Assembly (NCBI GenBank): GCA_013177945.1
Contig: JABLXW010000008.1
Coordinates: 62,001-126,000 of the forward strand
Direction of reading: 5' to 3'
Source of the DNA: Bacillota bacterium
GTDB taxonomy: Bacteria > Bacillota > DSM-12270 > Thermacetogeniales > Thermacetogeniaceae
DNA: 64,000 nt
The position numbers and the translations under genes are program-made. Below are positions 17,658 through 48,707 of this stretch, one piece after another. Numbering within the stretch: position 1 is the first letter of the stretch; every line of letters starts with the position of its first letter. The notes under the pieces were generated by a model, which searched no databases, was not told the DNA's origin, and saw only the letters and a program-made list of their open reading frames with translations.

Positions 17658-17685
17658 GGGCGCCAACCCTGGAACCGGTGCGCCC
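17658..17685 (-). terminator. Terminator-like hairpin in the riboswitch expression platform
   Basis: On the minus strand GGGCGCACC pairs with GGTTGGCGCCC across a short loop and is followed by a T-rich tract (TTTGCATTTTC). It lies between the aptamer and the first gene, where ligand-controlled termination is expected. Confidence 0.6.
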
Positions 17686-17691
17686 TCGCAA

Positions 17692-17810
17692 TCCTGCAAC
17701 TCCTTTCCAAGGTTGGGAGGTACCCCGGTTTCCCGGAATACCCTTCGGCCGCCGGCAGCTTTTTTTGCAGCAAGCCCCGCCGCAGCCTGCGTCTAGCCTC
17801 CATAGCAGGA
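17692..17810 (-). promoter_or_regulatory. Moco/Tuco-type riboswitch aptamer
   Basis: TCCTGC (17805-17810) and GCAGGA (17692-17697) close a roughly 119-nt structure. Its 3' core, CCTCCCAACCTTGGAAAGG, closely follows the CCTCCC-N5-TGGAAAGG core of the E. coli moaA Moco leader as I remember it. A nested hairpin, TTCCGGGAAACCGG, lies just before. It precedes seven Moco synthesis or associated genes. The assignment rests on remembered consensus and context, and Mo versus W specificity is not resolved. Confidence 0.75.
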
Positions 17811-17909
17811 ACGCCTTAGGAAGGCTAAATCGGAGTTCGGTCCTCTTCTCTTTTTTGATTTTTACTTTACCCCAATTCGAGCATCGTGCCCTCGCTTAAC
17901 ATTTCGCTT

Positions 17910-47008: not shown

Positions 47009-47416
47009 GTGAAAAAAGAACATGCGGCGTATATTGCAGGTATTATTGATGGAGAAGGAAGTATTTCCTTGGTAAAAGTGCATAAAAATCAGTATCCATC
47101 ACCTTTCATAAGTATACCCTCATCAGATTTAGAACTGCTGGAATGGATTAAAAATACCACAGGTTACGGTACCATAATTCGTAAAAGAAATTATAACCCT
47201 GCCAGGCACAAAGATTCTTATACATTAAATATAAGGTATAATGAAGCGATTACATTACTGAATGATATTGTTGAATACTTGGTTCTTCCAAGAAAGAAAC
47301 GGCGTGCTATGTTGATAATATCGGAATATAAAAAAGTAACGCCGCGAAACGGGAGATACTCAAAAGAACTACTTGCTGAAAAAGAACGTTTTTACCAAAA
47401 ATTTAATTCAATATGA
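47009..47416 (+). CDS. Single-motif LAGLIDADG homing endonuclease
   Basis: The 135-residue protein begins at GTG 47009 behind GGAGGGAG. It carries one LAGLIDADG helix, AYIAGIIDGEGSI, near its start, so it should act as a homodimer. The rest (YGTIIRKRNYNPARHKDSY, LVLPRKKRRAMLI) fits small intron-type endonucleases. Base composition is strongly AT-rich against a GC-rich genome. It lies outside the group I intron, 48 nt past the tmRNA 3' end on the opposite strand, with its own promoter. The intron-less ssrA T loop is the natural candidate target (inference). Confidence 0.88.
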   Translation: MKKEHAAYIAGIIDGEGSISLVKVHKNQYPSPFISIPSSDLELLEWIKNTTGYGTIIRKRNYNPARHKDSYTLNIRYNEAITLLNDIVEYLVLPRKKRRAMLIISEYKKVTPRNGRYSKELLAEKERFYQKFNSI

Positions 47417-47426
47417 GAATATAACA

Positions 47427-47456
47427 AAAGCAGACCGCAACAATCAGGTCTGCTTG
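47427..47456 (-). terminator. Intrinsic terminator of the tmRNA gene (convergent with the endonuclease gene)
   Basis: AAGCAGACC pairs with GGTCTGCTT around a 12-nt loop, followed on the minus strand by TTGTT. It begins 8 nt after the tmRNA CCA end. Confidence 0.8.
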
Positions 47457-47463
47457 AATTTTC

Positions 47464-48083
47464 TGGTGGAGGCGAGGGGACACGCTCCCTGCAGGTTTCC
47501 CTGCAGCGTGGACTATATCTTTACCCGGCGCGTGCTCAGGTGCCGGGTACCTGGCGTATTATGAAGAGCGCAATATGTTTGTGAGATGCTCTTCATCCAA
47601 GGCTAAAGCCTTGAGTCTCTACAGGGCCTGCCTGATTTAGTTCCAGGCTGACCCCTCGGTGTTGCCATATAGCGATGCTTGCGCTACTTAGGTTTCACCG
47701 ATGTAAGCCAGGTTTTCACCTGGATGTTGCCATCCAGGGCGACCTTTTGATCGAACCCCTGTCCGGAAGACCGGCTGCAAAGGCTTCTCCGAGCGCAGCC
47801 GGTGTTTTGTTCTCGCCGGAAAAAGCGCCCGCCGGCAGGCTCTCATCCGGCCAGCTCCGAGGTTTTCCGCTGCACCCCTGGAGCGCAGGGTGCAGCGGAT
47901 TGGCCTGCTGGGTGACGCCCGTTGCCGGCCCGCAGGCGAGGCCGGGCGGACGGGCCGCTTAATTAAGCAGCCAGAGCCAATTCTTCGTTGGCGGTTATTT
48001 TCTTTCCACCGTATTCCGGGCTGGTGGAACCCCGGCTCGCTGCCTCTGCCTCCAGATTCCCCCGTCGAAACCAGTACGCCCCC
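47464..48083 (-). ncRNA. ssrA: tmRNA (ssrA), interrupted by a group I intron
   Basis: The 5' end GGGGGCGTACTGGTTTCGAC and 3' end CGCCTCCACCA pair as a 7-bp acceptor stem, and CCA is encoded. The tag frame at 47963-47992 reads ANEELALAA then TAA; the charged Ala precedes it on stalled ribosomes. The T stem AGGGG/CCCCT is split by the intron at 47481-47749. Removing it restores TTCGATT, a normal T loop, and a mature RNA of 351 nt. The gene is downstream of smpB, the usual partner. Rescue of stalled ribosomes would depend on splicing. Confidence 0.95.
47481..47749 (-). other. Group I intron in the T loop of tmRNA
   Basis: The 269-nt insertion follows a U at the 5' splice site and ends in G. The last exon bases CGAU can pair with intron GUCG to make P1 with a U-G at the splice site. 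CTGGATG/CATCCAG capped by GCAA forms the next hairpin. The conserved 3' core AAGATATAGTCC lies at 47510-47521, with AGAGACT at 47613-47624 as its likely P7 partner. No ORF is inside; the endonuclease gene is beside it. Confidence 0.88.
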
Positions 48084-48212: not shown

Positions 48213-48692
48213 CTAGCGATCCCGCCCGCGCCACTCCCGCGCCATTTCCCGCGCCGCATCCCTTTTTGCGATTTCTTCCCGTTTGTCGTAGAGCTTTTTC
48301 CCCCGCGCCAGCGCCAGCTCCACCTTCGCCTTCCCCCTTTTAAAATAAAGGCGCAGGGGGATCAGGGTGTATCCCTTCTGGGTGGTCTGGCCCAGGAGGC
48401 GCCTGATCTCGCGCTTGTGCAGGAGGAGCTTCCGGGCGCGCTTGGGGTCGTGGTTGAACCGGTTCCCCTTCTCGTAGGGGCTGATATGCATGTTCTGGAG
48501 GAAGACCTCCCCGCCCACCACCTCGGCGTAGCTGTCCCGCAAGCTCACCTTTCCGGCCCTGAGAGACTTCACCTCCGTCCCCACCAGGGCAATCCCCGCT
48601 TCATATGTTTCATCGATATAGTAGTCATGCCGCGCCTTCCTGTTCTCGGCTACGACCTTAATGCCTTCGTTTCTTGCGTCCCGCAGCCTCAT
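48213..48692 (-). CDS. smpB: SsrA-binding protein SmpB
   Basis: SmpB carries tmRNA to stalled ribosomes. The protein has the family core [56 protein letters not shown] and the basic tail [18 protein letters not shown]. About 159 residues is normal. ATG 48692 is used; GTG and TTG lie 3 and 9 nt upstream with no better ribosome site. It is transcribed in the same direction as ssrA, 130 nt upstream of it. Confidence 0.97.
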
Positions 48693-48707
48693 CACCCCCA
48701 AAAAACT

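Follow-up and report, generated by a model that had tools for sequence, protein, structure and literature searches.

The tmRNA gene (ssrA) in the window, a 64,000-nt stretch of DNA from a Bacillota bacterium, is interrupted within its T loop, which raises the question of what interrupts it and how an insertion without an ORF would move. It is the single standard-form tmRNA gene in the window and lies on the minus strand (48083-47464). In a covariance-model search, RF00023 matches 48075-47748 (minus) with 132 bits and an E-value of 1.9e-51, well above the gathering score of 47, so the tmRNA check proposed by the first-pass annotation came out positive. The match stops at the T-arm; the 3' half of the T-arm, the acceptor 3' strand, and the CCA end appear only past a gap. 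According to RF00023 and sequence reading, exon 1 without its last base (47751-48083, minus) contains the acceptor 5' strand GGGGGCG, the tag, the pseudoknots, the T-stem 5' strand, and the T-loop nucleotides TTCGA. Exon 2 (47464-47480, minus), as read from the sequence, contains the last T-loop U, the T-stem 3' strand, the acceptor strand CGCCTCC, and ACCA. The acceptor stem GGGGGCG/CGCCTCC has the G3-U70 wobble, and the tag frame, GCC AAC GAA GAA TTG GCT CTG GCT GCT TAA, encodes ANEELALAA. The RF00023 match, tag frame, G3-U70 acceptor, T-arm, and CCA thus all belong to a standard-form tmRNA. Taking out 47749-47481 leaves GGAC-AGGGG-TTCGAT/T-CCCCT-CGCCTCC-ACCA, with the slash within the loop marking the junction. 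Our reading therefore agrees with the earlier one that acceptor stem, ANEELALAA frame, and T stem are intact, and that excision of 47481-47749 restores a TTCGATT loop. ARAGORN found no tmRNA in the window, missing ssrA because of the intron. The gene for the tmRNA partner protein, smpB (48213-48701, minus; PF01668, E 2e-65), is located upstream of ssrA in the same direction. The whole genome has one sole match above the tmRNA cut-off, which rules out a second or pseudogene tmRNA; tmRNA-based rescue in this host would hence need splicing of the T-loop intron. Elsewhere in the window, 17684-17847 (minus) matches the molybdenum/tungsten cofactor riboswitch RF01055 with 71 bits.

The insertion (47481-47749, minus) is a group I intron of 269 nt that lacks an ORF and ends in G. 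RF00028 matches 47764-47489 over its whole length with 46.7 bits and an E-value of 2.2e-10. The suggested group I model check thus yielded a full-length match, yet one whose score falls short of the gathering score of 50. RF00028 gives 35.3 bits for the intron of the genome G348, which indicates that this model is weak for the subgroup. R1, our own covariance model of 114 positions covering the T-arm and the 5' half of the intron, scores the window's intron at 102 bits. With z = -6.3, the predicted fold of the precursor comprises P1, P2, P3-P6, P7.1, P7.2, P8, and P9, and the P7.1 and P7.2 hairpins are located between P7 and P3. Specifically (all on the minus strand), P1 (47740-47753) pairs exon CGAU 47753-47750 with GUCG 47743-47740, and the last base of exon 1 at 47750, the -1 U of the 5' splice site, forms a U.G wobble in it. 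P2 (47719-47738) is a hairpin with a GCAA loop, 7 of whose 8 pairs have changed on both sides. P3 (47550-47712) pairs 47712-47707 with 47555-47550 around P4-P6 and P7.1/P7.2. P7 (47511-47617), the expected guanosine-binding helix, pairs GACU 47617-47614 with AGUC 47514-47511 and forms a pseudoknot with P3, and P9 (47489-47506) is a hairpin with a GAAA loop. Fold and covariation agree on P1, P3, and P9. Across 34 related introns, 83.5% of the cells are paired, compared with 68.2% in shuffled and no more than 41% in slid controls. Of the 79 pairs, 48 have changed on both sides, while P1, including its wobble, and the four pairs of P7 are invariant. The P3-P9 core with P7, the -1 U.G pair in P1, and the terminal G are those of a group I intron. 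What had been claimed from the letters, that a 269-nt group I intron splits the T loop and that a U before it, a G at its end, a P1 helix, and a core are visible, is correct to the base. The intron is inserted after loop nucleotide 6, at the site numbered as T-loop position 7 in PMC11915505. Splicing would give back TTCGATT and a functional tmRNA.

Intron-form tmRNA, with the intron at T-loop position 7, was reportedly first described by Williams in 2002. A survey lists 883 intron-form tmRNAs in 21 phyla, the majority at the position 7 subsite (PMC11915505), and the window's intron resembles them in host gene, T-loop subsite, boundary rules, and P7.1 region, with Bacillota as main hosts. R1 detected the intron in 20 genomes out of 398 sampled from the same phylum, three of these matches being weak, and in 47 of 207 Clostridiaceae genomes. 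The view that T-loop introns occur in few bacteria and are rare is contradicted by these numbers; a tmRNA interrupted by a group I intron is a known arrangement, and the window's intron is an ordinary member of the published set. The survey counted homing genes only inside the intron, in P7.1 or after P9, and found them in 36 of 883 (4.1%), about 4% of tmRNA introns versus 54% of archaeal rRNA introns (PMC11915505).

The new part of this locus lies outside the intron and beyond the coordinates of the first-pass annotation. A free-standing gene for a single-motif LAGLIDADG homing endonuclease of 135 residues (47009-47416, plus), with a GTG start after GGAGGGA, lies 47 nt beyond the tmRNA 3' end and is convergent with ssrA. 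Between the two genes is a 9-bp hairpin, AAGCAGACC/GGTCTGCTT (47428-47454), T-rich on both sides; a hairpin with a T run occurs at the same place in relatives, and it is likely a terminator common to ssrA and the LAGLIDADG gene. The assignment of the gene draws on PF00961 (E 9e-6), the structure model, the conserved position, and base composition. The AlphaFold model has a pLDDT of 94.8 and shows the alpha-beta-beta-alpha-beta-beta-alpha fold with the acidic-residue motif of single-motif LAGLIDADG proteins. Its Foldseek matches include the homodimeric enzymes I-MsoI, I-CreI, I-CvuI, and I-Vdi141I (E 1e-6 to 1e-5, TM 0.65-0.74). The protein shares with these the fold and the single motif YIAGIIDGEG, which is invariant in 39 family members, and differs in its identity of only about 20%, its extra last helix, its C-terminal TPRNGRY-like motif, which is conserved in the family, and the location of its gene outside an intron. 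The dN/dS of 0.03-0.25 reflects purifying selection and indicates that the protein has been kept functional. The GC content of the gene is 33-36% in surroundings of about 60%, which suggests that it was acquired from a low-GC donor. A phage or plasmid origin was considered and rejected, as the best phage matches have at most 40% identity and plasmid matches are none. The 49 relatives on viral contigs (at most 53% identity) include none with a convincing tmRNA intron, the best scoring 16.4 bits.

We then inspected whether this placement recurs. Protein patterns alone retrieved 73 genome loci of relatives. A T-loop intron is found within 1 kb of the gene in 52 of them, and the gene is outside the intron in 50: 45 genes are convergent in the 3' flank, five, all from proteobacterial MAGs, are also in the 3' flank but co-directional, and the two at L089 and L091, representing two lineages, are inside the intron. 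All seven genomes of the phylum sample that have a relative have one directly beside the tmRNA gene. Inside, co-directional, and convergent placements are intermixed on the tree, which indicates that the position has shifted while the tie to tmRNA has stayed. Aside from this family, two-motif LAGLIDADG genes follow intron-bearing tmRNA genes at 31 and 114 nt in the genomes G224 and G128 (L188:4276-5421 and L190:4399-5493). They resemble the window's gene in standing just after such a tmRNA but encode 364-382 residues with a Cys-rich N-terminus and are co-directional with tmRNA; this second class is an independent recruitment. One could regard the window's intron simply as an ordinary position 7 intron with an accidental neighbour, and it is indeed an ordinary member of the published set, but the adjacency in at least 50 genomes of several phyla excludes such an accident for practical purposes.

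Several loci depart from the common arrangement. At seven clostridial loci, the gene stands behind a remnant resembling a tmRNA 3' end, or behind its terminator, and the DNA upstream is unrelated, as if an island had pushed the gene away from tmRNA; in five of these (L039, L041, L043, L047, L064) the intron persists in the tmRNA gene of the genome. At L054 a remnant is not visible, and the genome's tmRNA likewise has the intron. In a genome of the same genus as the window's (G001, L016: 5073-5397, 11381-11730), an intact intronless tmRNA gene is followed by a homing-gene relic, and 6 kb beyond it lies a tmRNA 3' fragment with the intron still in it, which looks like the replacement of the tmRNA 3' end by a DNA island. 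Repeated intron-bearing tmRNA 3' ends, at most a few kb apart, occur at L188 (G224), L189 (G200), L063, and L099, and are further signs of islands entering intron-bearing tmRNA genes. At L096 (4001-4819), a homing-gene relative is located immediately 5' of the tmRNA gene rather than downstream of it. The record of Lutibacter sp. B2 (Bacteroidota; L040) has a tmRNA intron and a homing gene of clostridial type, and the assembly is probably misnamed or contaminated. In Tissierella praeacuta (L053:4408-4479), a full-length homing gene abuts the end of a group II intron, and a tmRNA was not found in that assembly. Two genomes of about 0.5 Mb (G414 and G421; L096 and L106, named Patescibacteria) give several extra R1 matches with E-values as low as 1e-10; these genomes are very small, and the matches are probably further group I introns.

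The presence of the gene was then compared with that of the intron. Among 207 Clostridiaceae genomes, 26 have a full-length gene. The intron is present in 22 of these 26 and in 25 of the 181 without one (p = 5e-13, a value that disregards shared ancestry and is thus too small); counting G468, whose intron is N-masked, the former number becomes 23 of 26. In all 21 gene-intron pairs on a shared contig the gene lies downstream in convergent orientation, at a distance of up to 340 bp in 14 and of 2.8-48 kb in seven. A gene or relic accompanies 32 of the 47 intron-bearing Clostridiaceae, far above the 4% from the intron-only search, and the other 15 have no trace of it. Across 78 loci, an intact gene occurs 53 times with the intron and four times without, and a broken gene nine times with and 12 times without (p = 7e-6, likewise too small given shared ancestry). 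Gene and intron distances each track SmpB distance (r 0.88-0.90), which indicates mostly vertical inheritance. Co-transfer of gene and intron, sought by distance matrices, was rejected, as the signal is mostly vertical and the partial gene-intron correlation of 0.39 is modest.

These data bear on what the protein does. If it were a maturase, binding the intron RNA and aiding its splicing, it would stay beside its substrate; purifying selection and largely vertical inheritance suit such a role, and the fold matches include I-AniI, a LAGLIDADG protein with the PDB title of bifunctional endonuclease and splicing factor. However, the congeners G348 and G386 are 96% identical in the tmRNA 3' region and intron, and only G348 has a 634-bp insertion with the gene. 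The gene is absent beside many introns, including about ten of this type in the phylum sample, and nine loci have the intron with a broken gene. The G348/G386 difference and the many introns without the gene make the maturase role unlikely. The same pair of congeners, in which the gene came or went without the intron, suits a different explanation: the endonuclease gene would be selfish and independent of the intron, targeting the tmRNA 3' flank or exon 2 and shielded by the insertion of the gene itself, and shared ancestry of the locus would account for its link to the intron. Such a gene could also stay beside intronless tmRNAs, as this one does, mostly as relics. Against this stand the strong enrichment of intact copies at loci with the intron, the two lineages (L089 and L091) whose intron itself contains a member of the same family, and a second LAGLIDADG class in the same place, so that we hold this explanation to be possible but rather improbable.

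We favor, with a probability of roughly two in three, collaborative homing, in which the T-arm is the common target of an intron lacking an ORF and a nuclease encoded outside it. The locus pairs a free-standing nuclease gene with an ORF-less intron to which it is linked, and the mobility of the intron would probably be supplied in trans by the convergent 3'-flank LAGLIDADG gene. The single-motif enzyme would dimerize with itself and act on the T-arm DNA of intronless ssrA, a near-palindromic inverted repeat that suits a homodimer. The putative target is GGGG-TTCGATT-CCCC, and the intron would enter 2 nt off its centre; position and symmetry are what point to the T-arm as the cleavage site. During repair from an allele with the intron, a tract of about 0.8 kb comprising the intron, exon 2, the terminator, and the endonuclease gene would be co-converted, and the intron, by splitting the target, would protect the host gene. 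Beside intronless tmRNAs the homing gene is usually broken. Of the seven intronless Clostridiaceae genomes with the longest gene copies, five have the variant T-arm GGACACGGGTTCGACACCCGT (TTCGACA), compared with 21 of the 152 other intronless Clostridiaceae (p = 0.001, again disregarding shared ancestry); the variant is in none of the intron-bearing Clostridiaceae genomes. L078 and L096 have intact genes and the aberrant T loops TGCAACT and TTCAATC. Variant T-arms in genomes with these genes may fit a resistant target.

Collaborative homing is known from phages (PMC3984707), such as the psbA nuclease of cyanophages, where an ORF-less intron likewise lies beside a free-standing homing endonuclease gene. 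The present pairs differ in being on bacterial chromosomes, in the LAGLIDADG family, in an RNA gene as host, and in occurring in many species, and their common target site is putative. Unlike the homing genes of the tmRNA survey, which are inside the intron, the window's gene is outside it, past the terminator and convergent (PMC11915505). A flanking homing gene at ssrA did not come up in our literature searches, and an earlier report may be among the early tmRNA-intron papers. It is fairly probable that a widespread chromosomal homing system exists, in which LAGLIDADG nucleases in the ssrA 3' flank cut the T-arm palindrome and drive the ORF-less intron through tmRNA genes. The spread of tmRNA introns, despite the low in-intron rate of 4%, would be accounted for by a gene located immediately outside ssrA. 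If this is true, the greater part of the machinery that moves tmRNA introns has gone uncounted because it lies outside the tmRNA gene.
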